This document shows, one piece after another, positions 4,031 through 22,041 of a DNA stretch of 64,000 bases. The stretch lies in contig MCGO01000075.1 in NCBI GenBank assembly GCA_002104985.1, positions 124,001 to 188,000 of the forward strand. Direction: 5' to 3'. A model generated the notes under the pieces. The model was not told the DNA's origin. It did not search any database and saw only the letters and a list, made by a program, of their open reading frames with translations. This stretch comes from Rhizoclosmatium globosum. Its lineage: Eukaryota; Chytridiomycota; Chytridiomycetes; Chytridiales; Chytriomycetaceae. Position 1 is the stretch's first letter. Each line of letters begins with the position of its first letter. Made by a program: the position numbers and the translations under genes.

Positions 4031-6225
4031 CTAGAACACTCTTTTCTCTTGCGTCTTTACTCCAAACAATAACGTCAAGTGAGACAACCTATTCTCAATC
4101 AAAACCTTCACCATATCAGCTCGAAATTCTCGAGGCGCGTCAATTACACCAATCACATTTTCATAATATTCTCTTCGTGCACAGAGCTCAGAAATAACTC
4201 TCCGATCAGAAAGAAGCATTGTTGAGATGGTTTTGTTTTGCTTTGAAACAGCAGTCACCAAAGCGGCCAAGTTCTTTGCACATGGATTGATTTGTCCATC
4301 CTTCAACAAGAGTTGAACAATATCGGAACGATCCTTGTTGATGAGTTCCACAAGAACTCTAGCACTCTCTGCCAATAAATTCATACGAGGATTTTGCAGG
4401 AACGTTTTGAGAATATTAGCTGGAACAGACATTGACAAGATGGCGTTATTGCCAAATTTTGGATCAATTCGAGAATCATCAAGAAGGGTATGGATAACAT
4501 CAGTGTGACGATGCCGAATAGCATATTTCAAGGCGTAGTTTCCCTGAGCTGTTGGATCTGCTCGACCATCAAGAAGGAGTGCCTTAATTAAAGGTACATA
4601 TCGACGAACACAGCTGTTTATAAATAGGATATTGTTGTCAAGAGTCACGTTGATTCTTGGATCCAAAAGGAGTTTTTCAAGAATAGTTTTGTAGTTTCCA
4701 TGTCCGGCCATGAGAAGCGCCGCATTGTCTTCCAACGATGGGTTAGTTCGAGGATCTTCCAAAATCCGTTGGACAATATCATCCCTCCCCTTCTTTGCAG
4801 CCAACTTCAACACATTTCGATTATTCGGATTTACTCGGCCATCAGTAAGCAATACATCAACGACTTCAAAGTGTCCATTTTCGATTGCAAAAATTAACGC
4901 TTTTGAATTGTTTTCGGAAGGATTAATTCGGGGATCAAGAATCCAAGATTGCAACTCCTCATACATGCCGTATATGCATAATAAATTCAAATAACTGATA
5001 TGGTTTTGGTCGTCCCTTTTATCGTACCGAGGGTCGTTAAGGAGAAGCTTCGCAATGTGTGTATTTCCAAGAACGTGAGCAATATAAAAAGCCGCATTCT
5101 TGTGTGCCGAGATGTCCAGAAGTGGATTCCTCAAACATATATCAACTATTTCGACGTGTTCTAGCTTGCATGCCCAACGAAGTGTCAGGGGATCTGACGG
5201 AGGGAGGGTTGCGGACTTCTCTTTTATTCTTTCTTTATTTATTTGTTTATTATCCGGTGGCTGTGTGGGAAGAAGCACCGGAAGGGGAAAATGTAAAAAT
5301 AGAAACTACCTTGTGAACAAAGCAGCGTGCGAACGGGCTCTGTTGGTGGAGGGCGTCTGGAACAGGACGGGGCGCCACCCGACATACTTGAGCGAGGTGG
5401 CCTAGGTACGTTTCTCCCCCTTTTGAGCGTAGTGTCTAGCCTGAGCGTCGGGTTGACCTCGTGTAAGGGATGGAAGGGAGGCACCATGACTGCAGGCATG
5501 TAAGGACAGGAGGGTTAGTACGGGTTTCAAAGCTGGATGGTTTCCCACCTACCCAGACCCGCGCTACGGGAATAGGGGACTGATCAACGATCAACCGGGG
5601 ATCACTGGACGGGTTCGGTGGATGTGAACCGAGGACAGTGATCGACTGCGGATGCGAACAGGACGGCTTGCGACAGGGATTCGCTGTAATGTGGGCTTGG
5701 ACCTACTGGACGGACTGTGGGAAGGAGGGGACTTCCACTGGCGCATCCGAGATGAGGGGATCGGTGATAAGGTGACGTTTTCCTTTTTTATGTATGAGTG
5801 AGATACTATTGACTACGTGCTAGGTACCGTTACGTCGGACATGGACAACCTGACATGCTTGGCAACGGCCGAGCCGGTATCCCGGTCACAGAAGCAACCG
5901 ATTGGTTGGTTGATAATCGAATTCTTCGATAATAGCTTTTACCATAGCCAGTAAGTACTTATTTGATACAGTAAACATTCGGTAACTCTTGATTCCGATT
6001 AATCCAGTTTGACTGAATCAACCGAAGCTTCACAAATGTGTTTGCTGATTGGATTGAAGTAATAGGAGACGAGAGGTACACCGACTTGGATGTGAGACAG
6101 AACTCTAACAAGAAGCTGTCTAATGGAAGCCAAAGAAAGATTACGCGAAGGATTTCGGGGACCAACGACTGGAGTGATGCTTTGCTGAGTGTGCTGGTGA
6201 CGAGTGGTTCAGCAGTGTGAATCAT
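4031..6225 (-). pseudogene. F-box/ankyrin gene interrupted by a solo LTR
   Basis: Minus-strand copy of the family. The 5' part (6225 to 5895) encodes MIHTAEPLVTSTLSKASLQS and an F-box, then shifts frame and lacks about 50 codons present in the intact copy at 26046-27635 (around nt 5995-6015). It resumes as MFTVSNKYLLAMVKAI and ends at PTNRLL. The reading then breaks at a 708-bp insertion, and RWACKLEHVEIV resumes at about 5182. From there the ankyrin region is open to the stop at 4031, with repeats such as LEDPRTNPSLEDNAALL. The insertion falls inside a codon run, so the gene cannot give the full product. The long 3' open frame suggests recent inactivation. Confidence 0.85.
5183..5890. mobile_element. 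Solo LTR of a retrotransposon
   Basis: A 708-bp GC-rich block with no plausible coding content, beginning TGTCAGGGG and ending GGTCACA (TG..CA ends). It is flanked on both sides by GAAG (5179-5182 and 5891-5894), a 4-bp target duplication. Removing the block and one GAAG rejoins the ankyrin frame (..NRLL-RWACKLEH..) found in intact paralogs, so the borders are set by comparison with the empty site. No internal retroelement genes are present, so this is a solo LTR left by LTR-LTR recombination. Ty3-type ancestry is a guess. Confidence 0.85.
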
Positions 6226-6318
6226 GAATTTATCAGAATATGCAACAAAGTTTTATGTTGCGAGAATCAGTGATGAAACTCTACAAAAGTATACGCATTT
6301 TTCCTTCCCTATCAAACA

Positions 6319-9300
6319 TCAAAGGAACAAACTTGGATCATCCAGCTTCAACTGCTGATCCATCAACCCTCCAATCAACACCTCAACAGAATACAAAGGA
6401 ACCCCAAATCCCCTCAACTTATCCCCAAACATCTCTTCATCCTCTTCACAACTCACCAAAATAACTTTCCCTTTATCCCCCATCGGAACATCTCCACCCA
6501 AAGGACTACTATCCCCCAACGACCGCCCCGCATGCGTGAATATCCGGATATCCTTCGTAGACAGTTTCCGTATCGACATTGGAGGAATCATTTTTCCACC
6601 CGCGCACTCCACAAGCCGCTTCAATATCGCCCAGTCCGGAGAAACCCTCGGCGTCGCATACACATTAAACCCACTCAATAGTTTCTTCGCCTTTGCCCGC
6701 GATATCGAAACACCAACAGAAAACCCAGGATACTCGCCTGCATCGTCCAAAGGCCGATACTCCTCCACATCCGCCCACACACCTGCTTTCAGAGACGCGT
6801 TTACCCACGCGCTCGTGACAATCTGTTTCCCAAGCGTGATTGCCGCGATGAATTTCTCGGTGCGCACGATTTTGTTGGTTATGAGGTGTGTGCAGGTTTC
6901 GATTTCTTTGGCGTCGGTGCAGTTGAGGAGGGTGGTTAGGTCTTTCCAGAGGGTTTTGTCGATTTTTGTGCCGCCGGTTGTTATTAGTTTTACGGGTGGA
7001 GGAGGTGGGGGTTGGGAGTTTCGACGCGCGCGTTTGTCGCGGGCGGAGGTTGTGAATTCAATGTCGCTCCAGTTGTCTGAGGTTGGGCCTGTTGAGTTTC
7101 TGCGAGAGCGTTTTGCGGGGATCGTTAAGGTAGTCGAAGTTGAAGTTGATGGTCTGGTTATTGTTGAAGCGGTAGCTGGTTGCCTTAAAGGTTGAAATGG
7201 CTTTGTACTGGAAGAAGAGGAAGGTTGGTTGGGCGTTTGTAACGATTTTTCCTTGGAAGCAGAAAGAACTGTACTTTGATGCCTGAGGGATTCAGCGATT
7301 TCCGCTGCTGACGTTGGTGTTTTTGTTGATGAGGCGATTGATTTCCCCTTTCCAGAAATACTTGTAGCTGTTGAGGTAGAAAGCTTAGCTGTCGTTGCAG
7401 TAGCACTAGGTTGAACCGGCTTCGTCACATTTGAAGTAACTGGCGGATTGGGAGGTTGCAAAGTTGTCTTCGTCGTTGCCGTTGTTACGGGAGCAACTGC
7501 ATCTACTGACGGCGTTGTTGATTTCACAGTTGAAGCTGAAGCTACATTTTTCACACTCGCAGACACAGCCTTCGCCACCACATTCGACCCAGAAACCGTC
7601 GTTTTCTTATCAACCACCGGAACAACAACAGCCCGATTTGTCGTCTTCATTTTCGCCACAGAAGCAACAGAATTTAAAGCCTTGGCCACATTCTGCACTG
7701 CATTACGTTCCCGCGTTTGACTCGACTCGTCACTGACTGCATCGAATTCGAACTGGTTTCCAACTTCTTCTGTGGAATGATGTTGTACGTTTTCTATTAC
7801 AGGAACCTGTTTTGGAACGTGCTCTTGCGGAACAGGTGCAGCTGGTGGAGTGGGTGCAGTGACAGGCCCAGGAGTTCCGGACGTGGAACGGCGTCGTGAT
7901 GTGTATGTGACTGAAGGAGTTTTGTGGGCTGGCGACTTTGGAGGTAGTGTCACAGCCTCAGCTGCGACTGGAGGTACATCAGATACGGTGGGATGAGATG
8001 GGATTGTGGCTTTTGGTAGAGGAGGCGATTTTGCAATGACGCCTGTGATTGGGTTTTTGAAAACGAGTTGGGATTTGAGGGCACTTGATGACGCTGATTT
8101 TGGCTTTGTTGGTTGTGTTGTTTTTGTCTGTAGGATAGCTGGAGTCGGCTGGTTTGTTGAAGTTGCCGATACCACAGGTTCATGAATAACTCTCGGAGGT
8201 TCGGCCGCTTTAGGCGTTACAGCAGCTTGTGGCAAGACAGTACTCGATTTGATGGTCGAACCCGTCGTAGCAGTTGTTGAAGCAACGTCATGTTGCGAAG
8301 CCCTTCGTGACTGTACTTTCCTGACACCCACAACCGGCGTCGCCTTCATCTTTTCTTGTTTTACAATCTCAACTGCTTCATCCTGAATCACATCCACCCC
8401 CTCATCATCACCCTCACAAAACGACCCAACAACCGGCAACCCAGGCCCCCTCTCCACAAGCCCACCCATACTCTGCGCACGTACCAACCCCGCCTGTATA
8501 TCCAACGCCCTCTCCGCCGCCCGAACAGACTTCTCAACGCGATGCGGGAGAACCCAAGCATCCCCCACAATCCGAGCAAGACAAACCGGAAACACGAGAA
8601 ACTCCATCCGCGTTGGAGAAACAACCTTCTCTTGACGGTAGCATTCCTCAAGCCACAGATGGTTCAACACGGGGATGTCCCATTCATGTGCGCGTGTGGT
8701 TTTTTCACTGAAGGGTCTGGGTTTTTTGAAAAATTTGTGAGGATGAATACACCCATTTGATGCATGCTCAAAATCAAGATTATATTTACCTTGCGCATAT
8801 TACGTGTGTGTTTTCTTGTGTCATTTGACGCGTGTATGTTCCACCCATTTGTGTGATGAGGATCTCAATGTCGCTTCTGGCTTGTCCGACGTAGTTCGTT
8901 GCGCAGATGCGGAACCCTGAAAAGTGCGGGATGGGGTTTGCGGGTGCAGGGTAATGCAAGAGTTTGTGTTTTGGTGGGGGTAGGGTTGTGGTTGCGAGAC
9001 TGTCGATGAGGTATCGAGGGGTTGCGAGGAGTTGGGTTGGGTGACGTTCAGCTTGGATGTAGATTTTTCCTTCGCGTTTTGGGAGAATAACGATTGTGCA
9101 GGATGTATTGTATTCTGATGTGATGGTTGCGCCGTGGGATTTGAGGGATGCGATTGTCTCTTTTGAGATTTGGCTTGCAGATTCCGGACCAATGTAAATC
9201 ACTTGGCCTTTGAGGTAGTTTGCATTCTTTGGAGGCATTTGCTCTATTTTCCATTTAATTAGAATATTGTTGGATGTGATGGTACAATTGCCACGCATTA

Positions 9301-10352
9301 AACTTTAAGTAACCAACTCCATTCGTTGCCAGGCGACGCACGTTTGCTCCACAGGAACTCGTTCTTTGCGCTCACTTAATCACTTCTTTCGCTGTTACGA
9401 CAACGAGCGTTGCTCTTAGAATCACTTCACACTCATCTCCAGCCTCACTTCACATACACTCCACTCGTTACCTCGCTACAAACCCACCTTTCGCTGACAA
9501 CGGTAAATTAATCACGCCAGTTCCGAGAGGACCCCACTCCAGATTCGCCTTGAGAATACCCGGATCAGGCCAACAATACGCAGATTCGGACAACCTCCTC
9601 TTCACTTTGACGCAATCATCAAAGTAGTGGGGCAGAATGAGCCGGAGACCATTTCCAGTGTATATTTGAGTAGGATTTGAGTCCAAGTTGTCCCAGCGTT
9701 GCGGTTTTTTAGATTGGGCAAGTGCAGCAGAGTATTGTTTGTTTGAGGGAGAGAGAACGATGAAGTGGGTTGTGTCGTTTGTCAATTGGGTGCGGTAGGA
9801 GCCACCGAGGGCCAGAACAGAGCCGAATAAAGCTGCCTGGTCGTGGAGGGAGATCTGATTGATTGATTGGTTGGTTGGTTGGTTGAGAGGGAGTGGGTCA
9901 GTACTTGTCCAAACACAGACAAGAACAAGAACAAACACCTCTTCACTCGCAGCAACAACCACGCCAGAAAAGAGGAACGACGGGTCCGTTGAATGCAGTT
10001 TCAGACTAGTTTCGCACGTGTGTTTTAGTTCGTAACTTCTACTCGAAACCAAACAAACACACTCGTCTTTCACGCCCAAATTGATCCATTTTCTGAGCCA
10101 CGAAACACGAACGCTCTTTGACTCGGTCGCTGCATTCGACTCGGCGGAAACAACAACGCTCGATTCACTTGCATCACTAACTTCGCGAAGCCCGAGGAAC
10201 TCAAGGCCTCGCCGAATCTGTTTGGATTTGGTTTTGAGTTTGGTTGTTTCGTTGTTTGATTCGATGGTGGTTTGGTTGGATGGTTGGAGGGAAGGGCGCA
10301 CCTGTGCTTGCTCAGTGTGTGGCAGGAACGGATCAACGTACACAGACGTCAT
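6319..10352 (-). CDS. Multi-BRCT DNA-damage response scaffold (Rtt107/Brc1/PTIP-like)
   Basis: Four exons fit, complement(6319..8707, 8790..9243, 9488..9854, 9939..10352), summing to 1207 codons in frame. The N-terminal region has three BRCT-like modules: FLFSGVVVAASEE..LALGGSYRTQLTNDTTHFIVL; LKGQVIYIGPESA onward; and FSGFRICATNY..MGGTYTRQMTQENTHVICAS with VLNHLWLEECYR. A long Ser/Thr/Pro-rich linker follows (about 450 residues). The C-terminal BRCT pair includes THLITNKIVRTEKFIAAI and QIVTSAWVNASLKAG, a pattern typical of the phosphopeptide-binding C-terminal pair of Rtt107, Brc1 and PTIP. Such proteins dock on gamma-H2A at stalled forks. The 244-nt intron 9244-9487 is unusually long; if it is not an intron, the gene splits at an ATG at 9238. 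Confidence 0.75.
9244..9487 (-). repeat. Long intron with shared repeat motif, BRCT gene
   Basis: A 244-nt intron where most others here are 43-58 nt. On the gene strand it contains GTGAGCGCAAAGAAC (9361-9375), a 13/15 match to the motif in the introns at 34874 and 56776, and further GAGTGG/GAAGTG-type units. Confidence 0.55.
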
Positions 10353-10767
10353 ATTTCGAAAACAGAAATGAAAAGAGTAATAAAGGAGAGAGAAAGGAAG
10401 AGACGCAAACCACAGTTTCTGGTTTGATGCCTTCTTGAATTATCGGAAAAGTAGAGGTAATCATTTCGCAGACATAATATGAAGCGATACCGAAGCCAAT
10501 TGAATTCAAAGGAATGATATTGTGGACTTCACTCTCAAATGTTCTGTATTCATTTGGTATTTTAAAAAATATTGGCTCATGTTGGTAAATGTTTTGACCG
10601 CTGGTAAAGAATATGTCATTCAACTCTAAAGCGTCCTGCACAACCCTGCTAAAATCAATTGTTAAATATAATGTACAGATACAATATGAGAGGGGTTGAT
10701 GCGACGTGCCACGAATCAAAGCCGCCAAAACAGCTTCCTCCCAAAACATCAAGACCCAAGATAACAA
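10333..10767 (-). CDS. Uncertain fragment, weakly like a fumarylacetoacetate-hydrolase fold protein
   Basis: A 144-codon minus-strand frame whose middle (about 10430-10660) looks coding: QDALELND, then HEPIFFKIPNEY, then NIIPLNSIGF and YYVCEMI. The order resembles the FAHD1 N-terminal region (HAxELN..EPxFFxKPxSxY..IxxP..VxxExE), but the match is weak and no metal-binding Glu cluster is clear. A splice acceptor (GATTTTAG) precedes it at about 10640-10650. It ends across the start of the BRCT gene. I cannot find the rest of such a gene, so it may be a relic. Confidence 0.25.
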   Translation of the reverse strand: MLSWVLMFWEEAVLAALIRGTSHQPLSYCICTLYLTIDFSRVVQDALELNDIFFTSGQNIYQHEPIFFKIPNEYRTFESEVHNIIPLNSIGFGIASYYVCEMITSTFPIIQEGIKPETVVCVSSFLSPLLLFSFLFSKYDVCVR

Positions 10768-11052
10768 ATACCCTCAAGATAATAACCGTACATCATATTA
10801 TATTAAAATGGTTTTGTTGCGAACCGTGACACCTCTTCCAATAACCTGCTTCCCCTTTCCGTTTTTTTTTTCATTGCAATCAAGGTGAAACACACTGTCC
10901 CCAAGATCCTTGCCTGAGTGCCCCACTAAACAAAGCTGTAGCTACTGAGGATGTCTCCTCCATTTTGATGCCGCAAGGGAGCTTTATTGTGCTCACGTCG
11001 TGTTTCCAACCAACCAACCAACACTAAACATCCCAAAAGGCCATCAAGAAAA

Positions 11053-11107
11053 GGTCGTACCCGGATTCGAACCGGGGTTACGGGTATCAGAAACCCGGGT
11101 GATAACC
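11053..11107 (-). tRNA. tRNA-Gln(CTG), 3' part of a split gene
   Basis: Read on the minus strand, this stretch starts inside the D-loop (GGTTATCAC). It has an anticodon arm CGGGT-TTCTGAT-ACCCG with anticodon CTG, a T-arm CCCGG-TTCGAAT-CCGGG, and the 3' acceptor strand TACGACC followed by T. A run of four T lies directly downstream (11048-11051 on plus as AAAA), a Pol III terminator. The 5' acceptor strand and the first half of the D-arm are missing here and are found 5.2 kb away at 16316-16333. The sequence is close to yeast tRNA-Gln, as I recall it. As it stands the A and B boxes are separated, so the gene should be inactive. Confidence 0.85.
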
Positions 11108-11250
11108 CCAAAAAAGCAAGAAAGGAGGGAAATCCTCGCCTTGAAAAAATTTTGCGGGTGGCTCATCTCTTTTGTTTCGAACACGCTTCGCGTGTCCGAA
11201 ACCCTAACAAACGGGCCCGGAAACAGCAGTCACGAAATCCTGCGGGTCAG

Positions 11251-11342
11251 CAGCCACCATTGAGAAAATCCTCTCTTTTCTTTTGGCAAGCAGCCACCAG
11301 CCAGAAAATCCGGCCAGTCCTCATCCACCATTCACAAAATCC
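11251..11342 (+). repeat. Three 21-nt subterminal direct repeats of the element
   Basis: Copies at 11251-11271, 11291-11311 and 11322-11342 share CAxCCACCAxxxxxxAAAATCC (written with gaps). They lie just upstream of the recombinase gene and contain the core AATCC also present in the GAAATCCT octamers at both element ends. They could be binding sites for the recombinase's N-terminal finger or for its promoter; that role is inferred. Confidence 0.6.
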
Positions 11343-11438
11343 CTCACCACCGCACCACCACAACCCTCATCCCATGCCCTCTCCATCTCAATCTACACAT
11401 TAAATGATATATTTTATTGAAACTAATACACAATATAA

Positions 11439-14400
11439 ACTTTCTACAGAGTCTACTGCTGCCAATGCGGCGATGAATGCCACGAAGACGACGATATCGA
11501 GTACCACCAGATTACCTGCTTCTTCTGTCGCTGCAATCTACACAGGGAATGCTCGTCGCGAACGATTGGATCAAGCAATGGTTTCTTTCAGTGCAAGGAC
11601 CGTTCGATTTGTGATGCTCGCTCTTTAATTTTGTCCTCAACACCATCTCAACCACAACACCCTCAACCACGTGTGCCCGTCCCAGAATCTGTTACTGAAA
11701 TGTCGGCTGGCTACTCGGAAGGACCGGCTTTCCCTCACGACGACCCTCGCAATGTTGTCGACCACCAACTCGCACCAAATGAACCCAGCAACACAGCATT
11801 TGACGCGTCTCGCTTCATCGATGGTGCGACTGGCCTTCCTCTGTCTCAGACGGACCCGGCACGTCTTCGAATGTTTCAAGCTTCGCACTATCGCGCTGTT
11901 CAGCAAAATAGGCAGGACCAGATGTAAGCACTTCGTCTAACAAAGCGCTGCGGTCCTAACTAACCATCTTTCTTTAGATTCACAAATGGTCCGAGTCAGT
12001 TGCCTCCGAATTACGTCGCGCCGTTGTTCTCCGGTCTTGTTGGCACAAGTCGACCAGAACTCGGACATCGTCCAACTGCTGCCACTGCCCCTCCACCTCC
12101 CGAACCAGCCACCGCCTCCTCCTCTTCCTCAAAGCCGAAAGCCAAAAAAGCGAAGACGGATTCTGCCGCCGACGCTCCGCCGCCACCACCTGTTCTTTGC
12201 AACCATTGCAATGAGCCTGTTACCAACACCGCCCCGGGATCCCAGTGCTTCTACGCCCCTCACGCTGTCCACAACAAGAAAGCGTGCTCTGATCGACACC
12301 AAAATGGACGTGCGTGTCACGACTGTATTGCGAACAAGATTGAAGGTAAGGTTGTTCCTCTATCATTATCAACGCTTACACTCCGCTTTTGTTGTTTAGC
12401 ACCTGCTCATCGTTCGAAAAATAATCGTATGTTCAAAGTTACCGGCAAGAACCACTTTGTTCCTTACCAAGTGCCGGCTCCGTCAACCTCTACCTCCACT
12501 GCCAGTGTTGCAAAACCGAAGAAAAAGTCTGGTCCACGGAAGGACAAGCCCAAGGCTTCCGTGGCACTTGTCGATGGCTCTATTGTTCTTCTTCCCGCCA
12601 CTGATCCCATTCCCCGTCCTCTGCCTCAGCCGGTTCTTCAATCCTATCTCCTCCGTGAAGATATGAACTTTCCCCTCGTTCTCGAGTTCGACCGAAAGAC
12701 GCCACTTCAAGACATACTTGATATGGCAGTCCGCGTTGCTGCCAGATTACTTCAAGACGAGCTTTTGGAGTACGTTCGTGCGAAAGGTAACCAATGCTTG
12801 GTTCTGTGTGTATTTCTAAACAAATAGTCAGTGGTTTTCATAGACGCAGGTGGAATTACTCGTCCTGACATTGAGGCGCAGTCGCACTTTAATTTGTTGA
12901 TCCTCTTTGGCCGTGGATACCATTTCACAAGAAAGCCCATCATCGCTATTGTTGACATGTATGATACATGCCTCCGAGACGTCTCCGACCATGCCATTTT
13001 GGAAAATCGCAACGTTTTTTTCTCAAACATGAGAAAAGCCGCAAGGTGGATGTGCGAACCAGATCAGAGAACCCACACAGCTCATGTTCGATACTGGTGT
13101 TATTATCTGGTAAGTTTGCCGATTTCTGTCTTCAGTCTTTGCTCAACAATTGTTTTCAGGAATTGATTCCAATTTGGATTGAAAATCAAAAGGCTGCTGG
13201 ATACGGCGTGGCACATTTTGAATCAACGTACCACATTACAATCTACTCGTCCCTTATTTCTCGGTTTTTGGAGATGCTTCTCGTGACAGATTCAAAGAAG
13301 GGGGACTTTGACGGCGACACTGGAAAGAAGAGTGTATGTTTTGTGATTGTGTTTTTTCCCTGACGTTTCTGTATAGGGTGTTCTTAAAAACGCCCATTCA
13401 AGTATTGCTTGGGTATCTCGAGCATTTCGTTGCGTGAATATGCATGTTCCCCTTGAACAGTATGGCTGTGGAGGAAGATCGTCAGACCAGTGCATTACAC
13501 ATCATGATGCCCTTGAGTCTGGAAGATTGCATAAAGCAAGCCGAATTCGAGAGTAAGTGAAACATCATTTATTTTACTCTTCTCATTCATAATGTATGTA
13601 GGAAGCAAGCGCACAACCCACACGGAACTATTCAAGGACAGCTCGAGAAGTTTCTCGATTTTGACACCCAGATGAAAATGCGACGTTTTCTCTTCCGCCA
13701 AGACCGAACAACTCTCCAGTCCTCTGGTTGGTTTGTGATCAAGATTATGAACTACGAGTGGGCTACTGGGAATCGGGTTTCTGAAGCTCGCCATCTTACG
13801 TGGGCTGAAAACAAGTTGATGAAGTTGGAAATCAACAAGAGCGAAAAAGTAGACGAACACTTGTCTTCGTTGGTGCAGGGTCCGAAGGCGCCTGAGGTGA
13901 ATGGCGAGTTTCTGTATGGTGCCGCGTTTATGATTACTGGAGCCAAGACTGCTGTATGTGCATTTATGAACTTCATTCAAATGTTAACATGATTTCAGAA
14001 TGCTCGCGCCGCCTCGGGCAAGGGAGACGCTCACTATGCATACTTAGCAGAAACGCAACATCCACTCATGTGCTTTTCATTCATTGTGATGTTGGAGCTT
14101 GTGATGGAATACCATGGCTTCTTGAAGACTCCCGAGCAAAAAAAGGCGTTTCTTCCATTCCACCAAGGTATTGCTGGTCTTCGAGCTCGTTACGTGTTCT
14201 ATGGTGCAAACTGGGAAAGTCCTGCTTCATACAGTTGCTTCTATTACCAACTGGTCAAAGTCCTCAAAAAATTCGATCTTAAAATTGATGGTATGTGCAC
14301 GCATTGACCTCTCGCAACTCGCATTCTAACATTATCCTCAGAAAAAGCGGTTCACATGTTTCGAATGCTCTGGGGAGAGCGACTACGTGCAGCTGGTGTT

Positions 14401-15930
14401 CCTGAAGATGCTATTGAGAGTCTGTGGAACTTCGATGATTCGTCGAAGAAAAAAGCGAGTGTCAAGGATGATTTCTATATTTACACTCCGGCTCCCGCGA
14501 CCGTCGTCGCCTCTGGTAACCACAACCATCGTGCAAAATCGATTCCAATCCATCGAAAGTGCGATATTCCCTCCTCGCTATCATCTTTGGTTTTTGACGG
14601 TGCCGTCGTCCAGTTCCGAATCAATCTGTCAGATCCTGAAAAGGCCAAACCACTCTGCCTACGCTTCAACTCGAACACTAATCAGATGGATGAAGGTCTT
14701 GAGTCTCTTGTGTCGTTGAAGTATATCTGCAGTTGGTTTGAGTGGGCTGTTGATGGATTATTCTACAACATGGCCTTCCTGCGAGTGTTTGAGACTGAGT
14801 TGGTTCCGTGGGAGGACAATAAGGAGACAGGAGTGAAGAGTAAGCTTATCTATTTGTTTATTGAATTTGACTCTTGCGCTATAGAATCCCCGATTTGGAT
14901 GTTACTTCCGACGGCTTTTGAATCTGTTGAGTTTCGTACCATTTGTGTAAAGGTTGAACGACAGGAAAAGGAGGCGTTCGCACAACGTAACGGCAACTTG
15001 AACGGAACTTTTCGCTCTGATATGAATCCAGCATTGTTTGACGACTTCCTGAGTCGATTGTTGCCCGAAGTTTCGGAGAAAATCCAGAATTCTGCTGATG
15101 CTTTACTGGAAAGGCTGGACTCTGCATTTACGGCAAAGTTGAACGTCATTTCGAACTTAGTCACTGGCATTGCTCGTTCAACTGGAACTCCTCTGATTGA
15201 AGCTGATTCTAATGGTGCAACTGTCTCGGTTCCAGTCGTCCCTGTCGATCCAACTCCAGTTGCTTCTGTCGCAGTTGATCCTGTACCTGTAACTACTGTC
15301 AGCGAGCTGCCGCAATCAATCGAATCGCTGTCGTTGTCGACTTCAGCGACTACTGGTCCAATGTCAAATCCCGAATTCGTTGATGCCCAGCAATGGGGTC
15401 TGCTTTCTGTGAAATACCGCAGACCGTACGATTCTACTTCGTTGCCAGAATCTCTCGACAATATCCCCATTTGTGACTTGGCTAACTTTGGTCATCCAAC
15501 ACCGAAAGCGATGATTAATGAAGTGGTTGATACTGCCATCACTCACTTCCCTGTGATGCATCGCCGCCATTTTATGAATTGGAGAAAGGCGCCGCACAAT
15601 CCCTTGGAGAACAAGTATGCTCGGTACGGGAATGTTGTGGCTCATGTCGTTCACGCTATTGAGAAGTTGAAGGAAGAGGGGAAGAGTTATACGTTGCAAG
15701 ACGGGATCGACAGTGTATACGACGACAAACGTTTTTGGTCATCAACAAAAAAGGATGGCGAGATTGTTTACCTGGCTTTTTCATTGACTATGCTTGCGAA
15801 AGCCGCTCCGGGACTAAAGAAGGACGATTTTGGGTTGAAGGCAGTTGAGGCGGAGGTCAAAGCGAGGAGTGCTGAAGCGTTGAAGAAGAAGAAGGAAAAT
15901 GAGAAAGTTCGAAGAATGTTGAATGATTGA
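11439..15930 (+). CDS. Zinc-finger tyrosine recombinase (Crypton-like), 10 visible exons
   Basis: Exons by eye: <11439-11923, 11978-12345, 12400-12786, 12844-13109, 13160-13333, 13377-13552, 13602-13953, 13999-14290, 14342-14839, 14885-15930. The frame runs through every join. The N-terminus has a Cys/His cluster YCCQCGDECHE..CFFCRCNLHREC and a second one CNHCNEPV..CHDC. The catalytic domain shows box I TGNRVSEARHLTW (Arg codon 13774), a Crypton-like HPLMCFSFIVMLELV, H-x-x-R in HMFRMLW (14353-14364), and Tyr in FYIYTP (14475 or 14481). That gives R..HxxR..Y. About 450 residues follow, with a basic helical C-terminus. The start codon is unresolved: no ATG lies in frame before the first stop upstream (about 11436), so a first exon may be missing. 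Confidence 0.8.
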
Positions 15931-16315
15931 TAAAGTTGTTATGTGTTCTTTATTTGTTTTAAACTATCTTCGAAACGATGAACAACGTCACCGACGATCC
16001 ACCCCCGTACGTTACCATCTGCGACATCCTTTCCGTCAACTCCTATTCAAATCGACTTTCTCAATACCTGCGTGTCTCTGCTGAGCGTAGCGATTGACTA
16101 TTGGTTGGAGCAGTTATGTTCAGTTCGCTCTATCACACCCAGGCCGATGTTCTGCTTCATCCACCCCTTAAACCTTATCAGTTATGATCCTTACCACCGG
16201 TTCTGGCGTTTGGAAGTGGCCTTTAGCCACGGATGGCCGGTGACGGTGGAGGATGGTGGTGGTCGAAATCCTCCCCCAAAATCGTTTTTCAGGATTTCAG
16301 GACCATTGAACATAC
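15931..16315. other. Right end of the recombinase element, non-coding
   Basis: This 385-bp stretch between the recombinase stop and the tRNA 5' part has no convincing gene. It holds the octamer GAAATCCT in both orientations (16265-16272 plus, 16291-16298 minus) and a purine-rich GGAGGATGGTGGTGG block. It probably contains the transcription end of the recombinase gene and the recombination site. Confidence 0.6.
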
Positions 16316-16333
16316 CCACTACACTATACAACA
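16316..16333 (-). tRNA. tRNA-Gln 5' part of a split gene
   Basis: On the minus strand the sequence reads TGTTGTA (acceptor 5' strand) then TAGTGTAGTGG (D-stem and A-box start), and stops at the D-loop where the other part at 11107 resumes. Fourteen consecutive bases, GTATAGTGTAGTGG, match the expected tRNA-Gln. Six of seven acceptor positions pair with the 3' part (one is a G-T wobble). The first pair is mismatched, which fits decay after disruption, or a mimic carried by the element. Confidence 0.75.
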
Positions 16334-16718
16334 CTTGACGTTCCACAGAGGTGTCGAGGGCCTTGTAGCCAAAAAAAAATACTCAAATTAGAGTTAAAAC
16401 GATCTTCCACATACTGATATCAATATTTCTAGCTTTATTTACTGTTTGGTTGCAGATTTTAGGTCTAGGTGGGAGTTCTAGCTGGATTTGGGTGCGTTTG
16501 AGATTTGAGGTTGCACCCCTCCAGTTGAGCTTTGTTTCAACGTCATTGTTATATATCCTTGAGGGGATAACTCGGCAGCACTTCATACGTATTCACATGT
16601 TCAGTTATTCCGAAGCTGATCGCTTTTTGAGGCTGGCGAACAGCGATCTCCTCTTATCAACTAACTCACTAATGCTATTTATTATGATACTACATGAGAC
16701 CTCTCACAACACACTTTC
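16334..16718. other. Intergenic, nothing recognised
   Basis: No coding stretch with family resemblance. It includes an A9 run (16372-16380) and the region that would be the 5' flank of the split tRNA gene. Confidence 0.5.
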
Positions 16719-17552
16719 TTAATCCTTTCGTTCCTTTCCTTCCTCCAATCTCTGTACATTCCCGCTTACGTTCTCGCGAGAAACCTTTTCGTGCCATGCG
16801 CATACCTTCCTCCACAGTACTACAACATTGTCCGTCGTGCGATACTTCTGGAATTCAATACCAAAGCAGAATTTAGCCATTTGGCTCAACGCAAGTTCCA
16901 CCAGTGCATAGAACAAAGTAAGACTGACTGCGGCACACACAACCTGAATAACAACTTGGAGCGGATACGGAATCATTGCAAGTGACGTGGCGGTGCGTTT
17001 GACAAAGTAACTCATGACAGACATTGAGAGAACAAGGGTATTCGAGAACGCATCTTCAGTGATAATCGTTGCAGCAACTTTCACAGTTGGTGAATTTCGC
17101 CATCTTTTTGACTGGTTCATTATAACTGCACTTGCTATGATGCATGCGTTGAATCGAGCGTGGAAGGAGAGGAGGGTGGTTTCATAGATAGGATCGATGT
17201 AGATGAGGAAGAGGAAGTAGAGCGGGGTGCCGAGCAGGAAGAGGGGTTGCTGACAGCGGAGGTATGCGGCAATTGTGAGTGTACTGAATGCAAAGAGAAA
17301 GACGGGTTGGAAGCACGGCTGGAACTCTGGGATTCCAAGCATGATGCCAAGACCGACGATGAATGGAAGTGCAATGGCGTGGATTTGACGGGATATATCC
17401 GTTGTGTATCCTACAATTTTGTCGAGTTCGGAGTCGGATAGCTCGGACAAGTCGTTGTGACGAGGTATGGTGAATTGAGTGAAGGTGGTCATCACGATGA
17501 TTTTGGCAAAGTTTGTGGCTGGCAGTCCGCTAACATTCACACCGAAGAACAT
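16719..17552 (-). CDS. Multi-pass membrane protein of unknown function
   Basis: Single-exon frame of about 277 aa; ATG at 17552 (a later ATG at 17492 is possible). I see about five hydrophobic segments: ALPFIVGLGIMLGI, PVFLFAFSTLTIAAYL, FLLGTPLYFLFLIYI, a weaker one near ACIIASAVIM, and VVIQVVCAAVSLTLFYALVE. A soluble basic C-terminus follows (KVCAWHEKVSRENV). No motif identifies the family. Its position beside the tRNA/recombinase insertion is probably coincidental. Confidence 0.6.
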   Translation of the reverse strand: MFFGVNVSGLPATNFAKIIVMTTFTQFTIPRHNDLSELSDSELDKIVGYTTDISRQIHAIALPFIVGLGIMLGIPEFQPCFQPVFLFAFSTLTIAAYLRCQQPLFLLGTPLYFLFLIYIDPIYETTLLSFHARFNACIIASAVIMNQSKRWRNSPTVKVAATIITEDAFSNTLVLSMSVMSYFVKRTATSLAMIPYPLQVVIQVVCAAVSLTLFYALVELALSQMAKFCFGIEFQKYRTTDNVVVLWRKVCAWHEKVSRENVSGNVQRLEEGKERKD

Positions 17553-17579
17553 AATTTGCGATGAGAAATAGATGGTCAC

Positions 17580-18010
17580 TTTGAACTTTATTTATTACTC
17601 ATTATACGCAAACCAAATGAAATTCTCCCATCTTCAAACAAAAATCTGCAGGCACTCTAACAATAATCATGTCTAAAATCCAAGTGGATCAAATTATCCC
17701 ATTCAAGGCCAGGCATGCGAGCATGTTCTAAAATGCTTGACGTTGAAGGAGCCAACCTATAATTATGAGCTGGAGTCCGAAATGCGATGTAACGACCGTG
17801 ATTCTCTGGTTACTTTCTTGACGCTACTCAAAATGTTGATTTCCGCGTGTGGCTTTCAGTTTTTGAGACAAACAATTAAATTTCCAAATATATAGGTACA
17901 TAGAGAATATTTGTTAACGGCAAAACACATAAATTTTGATGTGCTATTTCAGGAATATGTACATGTCCGTTCTACTGCTCTCATCCTAGGTTTACTTTAT
18001 TCACGTCACT
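17580..18010. other. Intergenic, nothing recognised
   Basis: AT-rich spacer of about 430 bp between two converging or tail-on genes; no RNA gene, repeat or coding fragment was recognised. Confidence 0.5.
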
Positions 18011-19136
18011 TTACCAACTACCAGGACGACTTTCTTTTATAGTCCATCGAAATGTATTCAACTCGGAGCTCCTGTTTCCTTGAAGATTTACTTTTTTCCA
18101 GGAATAGGAGGGTCTCTCACTGAATTTTCTATCGTAGAAGCCTGCAGGCACACATCCTTCCAATCGGTTCTCCTGCAAATACATGTACCACAGTTTATCT
18201 AACTTCGAGAGATTATTTGGAATCTTCCCATATAGACCACAGTTATTCAAATGTAGTTCCACAAGCGACTTCAGCTGACCCAATTCAGGCGGAATCTTGC
18301 AATTCAGATTTGTGTGGCTCAAGTCCATCAATCTAAGGTTCTCGAGTTGACCATATTCTGCTGGAATGGGCCCTTTGATACTTGTATAAGGCAGCTTCAG
18401 TTCACTTAAGTTCACAAGACGTCCGAATTCGGGCGGAAGTGTACCCGATAAAGTTGGATTGTTGCCAAAATTGAGAGTTTCCAGATTAATGAGGCAACCT
18501 AATTCAGCGGGAATCGGGCCTTTCAAATCGTTGCATGACAGATTCAGGTACTTCAAACGATTCAGGTGGCCGATTTCTTTTGGAATGGGTCCAACAATAC
18601 GGTTGTTGTACAAATTGAGTGTTGTTAGGTAAACGAGGTTACCCAATTCAGAGGGAATGGGACCGTTCAGATCGTTGTATGTCAGAATTAAGTACGTCAA
18701 ACGATCCAGTTGGCCGATTTCTTTTGGGATAGGTCCAGTGAAACTGGAGCGTGCGAGATTTAACGTCGTTGCGTTTGTCACAAGTCCAAGAGCAGCAGGG
18801 ACATAAACATTCGAAATTGGATGATTTAATAATTGGAAGTCAATTGCTTGCAAGTCTTGCATACAGTTGAGAGCGATTGCTTCTTGGAATTGGGGAGGGG
18901 ATGTTGAGGAACGAAGCAATCAAGTCCGCCTTGTTCGCAAACTCGCAAAGTACCATTCGTGCATATTCAGATGAATAAACATAGTCTTTGAAAGGTCTGG
19001 ATACTCTGGCAATGCGGAATGCCTCACGTGGGAGGAGCCAGCTGAATATCATCATGATCAGCTCAAAAGGTAGCTGGACTGTGCCTTCTTGCGGTCTAGT
19101 GCTCGTTTCGTTGGCTACTTGCTTGTTCTCACTCAT
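18011..19136 (-). CDS. F-box protein with plant-type leucine-rich repeats (frame break inside)
   Basis: The first frame (19136 to 18840) starts MSENKQVANETSTRPQEGTV and has an F-box-like segment LPFELIMMIFSWLLPREAFR. The second (18919 to 18011) carries about eight repeats of about 24 residues with the pattern LTxLNLxxNxLxGPIPxELGxLxxL, for example LNGPIPSELGNLVYLTTLNL. The frames overlap by 80 bp around PSPxPxF, with no credible intron, so one base is lost or gained near 18870-18900 (C-rich run). GPIPxELG is the extracellular plant-specific LRR consensus, rare inside an F-box protein. Either a pseudogene or an assembly error. Confidence 0.7.
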
Positions 19137-19223
19137 AGCGAAGTACTGATATTGAAAACTTGATGGTTGTTCCTTTCAGTTCAGACACAATAAATAGAAC
19201 AGATTTTAGCTGTCAAACATTGA

Positions 19224-20469
19224 ATGTCATCTCGAAAGTACAACTTGCGACATAGAGAACATGCTTTATTCCTATGCGCCATTGTCGGATCTTTGTGTTA
19301 TGTCCTGCTTCAAACTATTGGGTGGACCGAGGAACGTTCAACATTCCTCATAAACTCATCCCAGGACTACAACCAACATCCGACATTCACTAAAATTGAT
19401 CCAAACGATAAAGAAGCTCTCATAAAAAGTGGCTGTTTCGTGGATCCGCAAGCATACAAACCCGAAACGAAATTCAACGAGTCTCTATCAGACACGGCTG
19501 AAGATGCGTGGATCCGAATATTTCACACATGTTCTGCTATTGAGCCGGCGCATTTGAAGCGGTGCCCAATTCCGAATGCCTTTCATGGTGTTATGGGGAA
19601 TCATATGAAGTTCAAGTTCATTCACTATGTCGCGCTCAAGAGTGTGTACGAGGTTATGAAGCCATTTGCGATCTATATTCATGGTTTTAACTTCCCGATG
19701 GAGAATAAGCTGTTCCAAAAGGTACCTTTTCATTTGGGTTTCCATCCAACCTCATACCCAAATTCAATAGGCTATCCAAGACTTCAACCTCATTCTGATA
19801 CCATCGCGACGGCCTGATATGGTCTTTTTCAACGAAGTTAAGAATATTCAACACCAGTCCGACATTCTTCGAATGGAAATCAACATTCTCTATGGAGGAA
19901 TATACGCCGACTTTGACGTCCTCTGGCTACAATCTCTGCAAACAACTGATCTACTGTCTGGAAAACACGAAACAGTCCTCGCTGCCCAAACTCCAACAAA
20001 CCGTCCAAAAGGATGGATCGCAAACGGGGTCTTGATCAACAAACGTTGTGCCAGGTTCATGATTGATTGGTACAAGTTCTACGTCGTATTCAACGACCGT
20101 CTTTGGGATGCGCATTCTGTTGTGCTTCCGCACTTGCTCTGGAAAACCATTGCGAAGGAGGGGACTCGTTCAGGAGAGGTTTTGCATGTGGAGTTGTCTT
20201 CAATGCAGCAGCCGAGTTATTTCAGTCGGGAATTGATTCATACGAAGAAAGGATTAGTGGCTTGGAATTGGACGCAGAATATTGCTTGTCATTTGTGGTT
20301 TCGTTCGTATCCTGCGAAGAAAGCGTTAGGGTTTGGAACTGTGGAGAGTTTTGATGATCCTGTGGGGAGAATGGTGAGGTGGATATTATCTGGGGACAAA
20401 CGAGAGCCGTTTGATATGAAAAGAACGTATTTTCAGAATGAGACTCATATGAAAATAAACTCTTTGTAA
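19224..20469 (+). CDS. GT32-like glycosyltransferase, type II membrane protein, copy 1
   Basis: Join(19224..19721, 19771..20469), 398 aa; the 49-nt intron starts GTACC and ends CAATAG. An N-terminal signal anchor (ALFLCAIVGSLCYVLLQTIG, residues about 14-33) is followed by a lumenal catalytic domain. The DXD motif lies in YGGIYADFDVLWLQ, with RMEINILYGG before it; this is the sugar-nucleotide binding signature of the DXD-containing glycosyltransferase family (GT32, Och1/Sur1-like). Likely a Golgi mannosyl- or hexosyltransferase; donor and acceptor are unknown. It is a tandem partner of the gene at 20707 with the intron at the same site. Confidence 0.8.
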
Positions 20470-20706
20470 AATCGGGGAAGTGAAGCACTTGCACCAGAGC
20501 TGAGTAAAATTAGCCAAACTGTCTTAAAAGTGCCCAAGCATAATTTCTCGCCTCACATTAGCCGAAAGGTCGCGACTTCAGCTTCACAACACTTTTGTTT
20601 GTTGCCCGCCCTGTCAATTTTTTCAATCGACATTCCCAGTGGTGCCTTCATCCACCGTAAGACCCTCATGTGCATGAATTTATAACAGTTTTTATAGTGT
20701 TCATAG

Positions 20707-22041
20707 ATGTCCGATCGAAAGTTCCGATACCTCCTCATCCCAGTCGCAGGAGTTGCCCTCATTCTGACAGCCCTCGTCGCACTCAACACCCGCCACCACA
20801 AATTAAACCTGAGCCCGCGAAAACTATTCTGGAATTCAGAATCCACAAATCTTCAAGCTGGTGCAAAGAAAGCCCCATGGACGGGATGGGATGACAAAAA
20901 GTGGTTTGGAATTAGTACTATCGATCCAAACGACAAGGAGGCGCTTATCGCTGCGGGATGCTTTGTAGATCCTACAACGTATAAACCGGAAATTCCTGTG
21001 AATGAGCCGCTTCCTGATACTGCGAATGACGCGTGGGAACGGATGTATAATTCGTGTGTGGATATTACACCTCCAATGTTGACGCGTTGTCCGATCCCGA
21101 ATGCATATCACGGCGTGTTTGGTGATGGAATGGAGTTCAAGTTTCATCATTATGTTGCACTCAAAAGTGTGCATGATGTGTTGAAGCCGTTTGCCATGTA
21201 CATTCATGGATTTAACTTTCCGATGGAGAGTGAATTGTTTCAAAAGGTGAGTAGCACTGATGTATAATGTTCGGCAGATAACTCAAACCTATGGGAATAG
21301 GCAATTCAAGACTTCAACCTCATTTTAGTTCCAAGTCGCAAGGCCGACAAAGTATTTCATCTCGATGTCAAAGTATTGGAGCATCAATCCGATATTCTTC
21401 GTATGGAAATCAATACTGTGTATGGCGGTATCTACTCTGATTTTGACGTGTTCTGGCTACAACCCCTTCATCGCGAGCAGTCTGAAATCACCGACTTTTA
21501 CAAAGAGTTTTTAGATGGTGAGCATGAAACTGTTCTCGCTGGACAGTCTCCTCAAAATGGTGTCATCGGCCGAGTTGCGAATGGTGTCTTGATCAACAAA
21601 CGTTGTGCACGCTTCATGCAGGATTGGTACAAACTGTACCTTCTATTCAACGACCAAGATTGGGAATTTCATTCAGTCATCCTCCCGCATATTCTGTGGA
21701 AGACGATCGGAAGAACGGGAAGCCCGGCTGATGAACTGGTGCACGTCGAGCACTCATCTATGCAGCAACCTAGTTATGATTGGAGATCTTTGATTCATAC
21801 GCCACGAGGATTCACGGAATGGAACTGGACACAGAACATTGCGTGTCATTTATGGATTCGTGAATATGAGGGACGCGACAAACTCAATTTTGAGTCTATC
21901 AAGACTGTAAATGATCCTATTGGACGCATGGCTCGGTACATTTTGTGGGGGAACAAGAAGGAGAAGTTTGATATGAATATCAACTACTTTATCAATGAAA
22001 CGGACTTCCAGGAGGTGAAAAAGCGGGGTAATTCCGATTGA
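20707..22041 (+). CDS. GT32-like glycosyltransferase, type II membrane protein, copy 2
   Basis: Join(20707..21246, 21301..22041), 426 aa. Same layout as the copy at 19224: N-terminal anchor (YLLIPVAGVALILTALVAL), stem, conserved block DPNDKEALIAAGCFVDP, then DXD in YGGIYSDFDVFWLQ and a shared tail (IGRMARYILWG). The intron position after LFQK is identical, so the pair arose by tandem duplication after that intron was gained. Both keep catalytic residues and full length, so both may be functional, with different acceptors possible. Confidence 0.8.

Follow-up and report, generated by a model that had tools for sequence, protein, structure and literature searches.

The window analysed here, a 64,000-nucleotide stretch of the chytrid Rhizoclosmatium globosum (C394:124001–188000; C numbers are contig labels), contains a tyrosine-recombinase element of 5.2 kb (~11108–16315), which was found between two parts of one tRNA-Gln(CTG) gene. 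Both parts are on the minus strand. The 3′ part (11053–11107) begins in the D-loop beyond the A box, continues to the 3′ end of the gene and comprises the anticodon arm, the T arm and the B box; the 5′ part (16316 to ~16334) consists of the acceptor 5′ strand and the A box and ends with G18-G19. Read in the tRNA sense, the 5′ part ends ...TATAGTGTAGTGG at 16316, 5.2 kb of other sequence follows, and the 3′ part starts with TTATCACCCGGG and ends at 11053. The gene is cut after the invariant D-loop G18-G19. The junctions have GG in common with the target, and because both of them fall within a run of G (in the tRNA sense), the element ends are uncertain by 2–3 bp. No intact tRNA was detected in the window by ARAGORN or Rfam.

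The whole assembly (56.9 Mb, 420 contigs) was searched for an intact counterpart of the split gene, as the initial annotation had advised, and one was found. In a whole-genome DNA search, the left flank of the element (query 29–108) abutted the right flank (query 5313–5401) at C235:40331–40489, with a 6-bp overlap, and ARAGORN called an intact tRNA-Gln(CTG) at this joint. The stretches of both tRNA parts recur in this intact gene, the 3′ part identically, which bore out the claim that the window holds the two halves of one tRNA-Gln(CTG) gene. The similarity extended far beyond the tRNA: C235:35401–45400 was colinear with window positions 21336–16312 (right flank, 16312–21336; 95.3% identity over 5056 bp) and 11107–6023 (left flank, 6023–11107; 93.1% identity over 5106 bp to C235:40410–45400), and the match stopped at 11107 on the left and at 16312 on the right. 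Because the C235 block is colinear on both sides, the element is the sole extra sequence in the window, inserted cleanly relative to the homologous block. C235 is the empty site, either as an allele or as a paralogous block. A DNA search that skipped simple repeats detected no second copy of the window element in the assembly. In a tRNA-Gln copy at C32 (~24.06 kb), 11 bp of A-box sequence were observed to be absent; the gap is flanked by two TAT repeats and coincides exactly with the surroundings of the target GG. It may have been left by an excision, or may be a simple deletion.

One recombinase gene lies between the tRNA halves, as had been claimed. The gene (11440–15930) is on the plus strand, antisense to the tRNA, and was modelled as one frame of 1346 codons in 10 exons (11440–11923, 11978–12345, 12400–12786, 12844–13109, 13160–13333, 13377–13552, 13602–13953, 13999–14290, 14342–14839 and 14885–15930), with nine hand-placed GT-AG introns of 43–57 bp and a stop at 15930. 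Outside the gene, the element has ~330 bp at one end and ~385 bp at the other. By eye, the protein consists of a Cys/His-rich N-terminus, a catalytic domain spread over four exons (13660–14496) and a long C-terminus. An internal ATG opens the stretch MSAGYSEGPAFP, which is also present in the gene of the C91 element described below.

The Pfam scan of the window protein returned only Phage_integrase, which stayed below the curated cut-off both with the entire protein as query (E 0.023) and with just its catalytic domain (E 3.6e-4). The best solved structure for the recombinase profile was XerD, at an E of only 0.42, and a PDB search with the full-length profile returned no recombinase. NDC10_II matched the product of the C408 element (E 5.8e-4), and a genome search with NDC10_II gave this one match only, below cut-off. 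Since the library support was weak, the recombinase identity rests on the invariant residues. In an alignment of the catalytic domains of six families, with pairwise identities of 18–45%, 11 columns were invariant, among them R, K, HxxR, W and Y, and the residue order of tyrosine recombinases (R, K/beta, H-x-x-R, H or W, Y) was found in all six. The predicted product of the window gene is a tyrosine recombinase. Two database searches returned the same sole relative, a 923-aa protein of Rhizoclosmatium hyalinum, which was 99.7% identical to the C91 element product (3 of 923 residues differ). This near-identity points to recent spread or to a very close host.

By four protein searches, at least 19 recombinase loci were detected in the assembly, the window locus included. 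Both junctions were read at 10 of the 19, on nine contigs, and at all 10 the element was inside a tRNA gene. Insertion at unrelated sites, which the initial annotation had named as the outcome that would speak against targeting, was found at 0 of these 10 loci. Because of their repeated or homologous surroundings, the two copies at C91 were merged into one event and those at C1 and C42 into another, which left 8 independent sites covering five tRNA types (Gln, Phe, Glu, Cys and Leu). A clean break at the D-loop GG was seen at 5 of the 8, and a sixth (C408) has one end there. At C91, two near-identical copies are in a tandem array with tRNA-Phe(GAA), split as CATCTGGG/AGAGC (the slash marks the junction) at the D-loop GG. 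The homologous blocks at C1 and C42 have tRNA-Glu(TTC) split at CCAACGG/TCAGG; a second tRNA-Glu with different flanks (C415 at 94 kb) is split at CCAACGG/TTAGG, and a tRNA-Cys, named from its GCA anticodon, at CAGT-GG-TAGAGC (C365). In the tRNA-Phe of C408 the 5′ junction is CATCTGG and the 3′ part restarts at TAAGACTG. The remaining two insertions were at other points of the tRNA gene. The element at C301 (104.7 kb), 99.3% identical to that of C91, entered a tRNA-Gln variant from the opposite strand near position 26 (ACCAGGG/TGATCACC), and that at C113 entered tRNA-Leu(AAG) between the D-stem and the anticodon stem, with AAAGGCG and TAAGGCC on the two sides. The recombinase gene was antisense to the tRNA at 9 of the 10 loci, the exception being C301.

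These results refined what had been proposed for the target. The expectation of several copies splitting a tRNA D-loop did not hold for the window element itself, which is single-copy, but it held for its relatives at C91, C1, C42, C415, C365 and, by the 5′ junction, C408. The A-box/D-loop as a specific target, with disruption of the gene, was supported, although other tRNA points are used as well, and GTAGTGG/TTATC proved to be only the tRNA-Gln form of the site. To obtain a rough bound on chance, 3174 first-look tRNA candidates (63 scored) were each taken as 75 bp, or 0.42% of the genome in total; the chance of 8 of 8 sites falling within tRNA genes was then ~1e-19. Chance location in tRNA genes is excluded, and the counts of tRNA halves given below are in agreement with this.

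Three further loci were suggestive but were not counted as tRNA insertions: that at C415:84.7 kb, with a tRNA-Leu 5′ half at C415:81172; that at C301:153.9 kb, in a tRNA-Leu array where one spacing is 11,735 bp compared with 1,604 elsewhere; and that at C101:72.6 kb, with a tRNA-Leu 3′ half starting at the D-loop GG 6 kb away. The loci at C395 (161 and 163 kb), C46 (519 and 523 kb), C301 (163 kb) and C76 (19.7 kb) were outside the junction reading. The elements read were 5.2–9.0 kb long. In the 9-kb family 2 elements (C415, ~90.99–99.87 kb, and the C1, C42 and C365 copies), a second open frame was observed after the recombinase, with a Pif1 2B domain (E 5.5e-10) and helicase-like motifs; having both the recombinase and this frame, they are two-gene elements. 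Scanning of viral contigs with the recombinase profile gave 3 pattern matches, 0 of which were confirmed.

We estimate at roughly 87% the probability that the window element is a tyrosine-recombinase DNA transposon inserted in a nuclear tRNA-Gln gene, and that the related group in this genome uses tRNA genes as attachment sites. The element would move as a circle, its recombinase binding inverted repeats near the circle junction as well as the A-box/D-arm DNA of the target, where the stem strands would act as a naturally occurring short inverted repeat, the loop of which contains G18-G19. Strand exchange would take place inside the run of G. Such pairing of the circular form with the D-arm would parallel the use of the anticodon arm by prokaryotic integrases (PMC8371274; this source and those cited below are represented by excerpts). 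Subterminal inverted-repeat arms were found in the window element at 11129–11161, on the tRNA 3′ side, and at 16270–16298, on the tRNA 5′ side. Their alignment score was reached by 0 of 1000 mononucleotide shuffles, and for the end repeats of C1, C365 and C113 the corresponding numbers were 0, 1 and 5. The family 2 elements had 2 and 3 G residues at their paired junctions in each of the two tRNA-Glu genes, against 1 and 4 in tRNA-Cys, as if exchange between a donor GGG and one and the same GG had fallen at varying points; a circle junction of the sequence ATAGA-GGG-TCTAT would follow, itself an inverted repeat.

The outcome would be an element between two tRNA halves, each short of one internal promoter box. 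Since the A box stays with the 5′ half and the B box with the 3′ half, neither half is predicted to have both. At C1, C42 and C415, ARAGORN called shortened tRNA-Glu genes of 66–67 nucleotides, in which the 3′ half is joined to the element end (ACCTATAGAG...) and an A box is absent; the element end there looks as if it may be able to pair with the acceptor strand. Because tRNA-Gln, -Phe and -Leu genes are multicopy in this genome, loss of the split gene would be tolerable.

Several observations weigh against this reading. The junction reading covers 10 of the 19 loci. The elements at C301 and C113 are inside tRNA genes yet off the D-loop GG, and tRNA bases are gone at the junctions of C408 (7 bp) and C113 (6 bp); these sites and losses go beyond the simplest form of the mechanism and are not explained by it. 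The end inverted repeats were non-significant for C91 (112 of 1000 shuffles) and C408 (162 of 1000). As described above, the matches to tyrosine-recombinase libraries were weak. For the first exon of the window gene, no start codon that seemed plausible was found: upstream of it within the element, ATGs occur only at 11374 and 11404, and no evident intron links either of them to the gene.

The off-D-loop sites would be expected if a recombinase of low specificity were brought to the gene by RNA polymerase III (Pol III) factors at the A and B boxes and cut whatever DNA was exposed there, and discussions of the tRNA-associated retrotransposons of eukaryotes invoke the Pol III machinery (PMC5006619). 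Those retrotransposons, however, insert beside tRNA genes and not inside them at one base (PMC5006619), whereas the break at five independent sites here falls within one and the same pair of bases, the four tRNA genes concerned differing in sequence outside the A box, and 9 of 10 loci show one fixed orientation. Tethering without direct recognition is therefore unlikely, though it may act as an addition to direct recognition as well as being a rival to it. It is highly improbable that the recombinase genes are passengers of elements that entered by another route, either a Dada-type DDE transposase or homologous recombination between tRNA genes. Dada transposons do enter tRNA genes, some of them in the A box (PMC3706591), but no DDE transposase came up when the window gene and open reading frames of families 1b, 2 and 5 were scanned with Pfam, the junctions share 1–4 bp of a G run and not duplications of 6–7 bp, and six divergent recombinases retain all catalytic residues. 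Chimeric joins at repeated tRNA genes were considered too, as the assembly has 420 contigs with near-duplicate blocks and the junctions are known from it alone. An artefact of this kind was rejected as scarcely credible, because at each of the 10 loci read, which are spread over nine contigs, the two element ends abut exact complementary halves of one tRNA, and because colinear flanks of 5 kb border the window site on both sides. Least probable of all, and rejected, is that the tRNA halves belong to the element as captured cargo or attachment sequence, as prokaryotic elements often bear tRNA pieces: the halves lie in the flank common to the empty C235 block, and the near-identical elements of C91 and C301 are in different tRNAs (tRNA-Phe and tRNA-Gln), as are those of C365 and C415 (~97–98% alike, in tRNA-Cys and tRNA-Glu).

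Tyrosine-recombinase targeting of tRNA genes is classic in prokaryotes, and several eukaryotic element classes had to be compared with the transposons described here. Starships, giant cargo-rich elements with a DUF3435 captain, were rejected, as DUF3435 was absent from the Pfam lists at E up to 1 and 5 and the elements read are 5.2–9.0 kb. DIRS, Ngaro and VIPER were rejected as well, because the window gene has no reverse transcriptase and there is no room for one outside it. Neither reverse transcriptase nor DDE transposase was found in the Pfam scan of the window gene, and the same was true of the scanned parts of the other families. Dada elements are similar to those described here in that they too are DNA transposons of eukaryotes and occupy fixed positions within tRNA genes, which in some families lie in the A box (PMC3706591, PMC8869645); they were rejected, since they have a DDE transposase and target duplications of 6–7 bp (PMC3706591), neither of which was seen.

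The nearest eukaryotic comparison is with CryptonF, with which these elements share a tyrosine-recombinase mobility gene, no reverse transcriptase found, a size of 5–9 kb, a short shared core and a fungal host (PMC3212892). The weak NDC10_II match of C408 is a further likeness, Cbf2/Ndc10 being described as Crypton-derived (PMC3212892). They differ in the tRNA-gene target, tRNA having 0 mentions in PMC3212892; in the imperfect terminal or subterminal inverted repeats of 4 of 6 elements tested, whereas Cryptons are described there as lacking them (PMC3212892); and in a shared core of 1–4 bp compared with direct repeats of 4–6 bp (PMC3212892). GCR1_C, the Crypton C-terminal domain, gave no significant match (1 of 4 proteins, at an E of 0.28), and its genome search matched nowhere, controls included. 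In the excerpted descriptions, Crypton features are thus found here only in part (PMC3212892, PMC7175516). The label 'Crypton-like' in the initial annotation describes a resemblance, and membership of the Cryptons is not established. CryptonV is likewise a eukaryotic tyrosine-recombinase transposon with a defined target, but that target is microsatellites and not tRNA genes (PMC8869645). Ty1, Ty3 and TRE also use multicopy tRNA genes as a landing place; unlike the present elements, they are reverse-transcribed and inserted beside the tRNA gene, not within it (PMC5006619). For cryptophyte polinton-like viruses, many of which have a tyrosine recombinase, the excerpts report no tRNA gene within 1 kb of insertions (PMC12220804).

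The prokaryotic tyrosine integrases that integrate into tRNA genes are alike in recombinase type, in an attachment site inside tRNA genes and in stem-loop symmetry as its likely reason (PMC8371274). They commonly attach in the anticodon region, in the T region or at the 3′ end, pTN3-like integrases doing so in the 5′ half, and their integration rebuilds the whole tRNA gene (PMC8371274). By contrast, the D-loop is most used here and the gene is left in halves; no rebuilt uninterrupted tRNA gene was found in the window. Within the sites described in those excerpts, G18-G19 is a point outside the common prokaryotic integrase sites (PMC8371274).

In the titles and abstract openings of the openly licensed literature, no report was found of a eukaryotic tyrosine-recombinase element that targets tRNA genes; Repbase reports were outside this scope, and a prior description of such elements elsewhere is possible. 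The results support a group of tyrosine-recombinase DNA transposons with specificity for tRNA genes, mostly the D-loop, and suggest that a counterpart of the tRNA-gene targeting seen in bacterial viruses and islands exists in this chytrid in a form of its own. A broader proposal, which we hold with more reserve but still favour, is that chytrids host distinct multi-family eukaryotic tyrosine-recombinase transposons that read A-box/D-arm DNA as an inverted-repeat attachment site and exchange within G18-G19, the tRNA gene being destroyed and not rebuilt, and that bacterial-style tRNA attachment evolved separately in eukaryotic nuclei. In bacteria and archaea, tRNA genes are the best-known docking sites of integrases, and the stem-loop symmetry and conservation of these genes have been given as the reason for the preference. 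A eukaryotic group that uses the same genes, mostly at the D-loop and without rebuilding them, provides an independent test of that explanation. Recombinases with a short, almost universal and multicopy nuclear target might also be obtained from such a group.

The insertions are a recurring cost to the tRNA gene set. For tRNA-Phe, 24 matches to the 5′ half and 23 to the 3′ half were counted; 21 formed intact pairs, and 3 of the 24 5′ halves were split by an element. The unpaired halves were those of the two C91 copies and of C408, whose damaged 3′ half escapes the pattern. For tRNA-Leu(AAG), 13 of 19 matches to the 3′ half had a 5′ half at normal distance, and five genes were split or orphaned (C28, C101, C113, C168 and C359). 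At C168:229638–233928 the tRNA-Leu(AAG) halves are 4.2 kb apart with the 5′ junction in the anticodon loop; as no recombinase match was obtained there, this insertion may be non-autonomous or unrelated. The remaining match to the 3′ half, a tRNA-Leu at C383:230430–230560, has lost 18 bp between the D-loop and the anticodon stem, and with them a portion of the anticodon arm. Tandem arrays of tRNA-Phe (at C91 together with tRNA-Ala) and of tRNA-Leu, in units of ~1.0 and 1.6 kb, were observed at C91, C1:149–158 kb, C301:144–161 kb and C418:38–50 kb, and at C91 the array unit together with its element is itself repeated.

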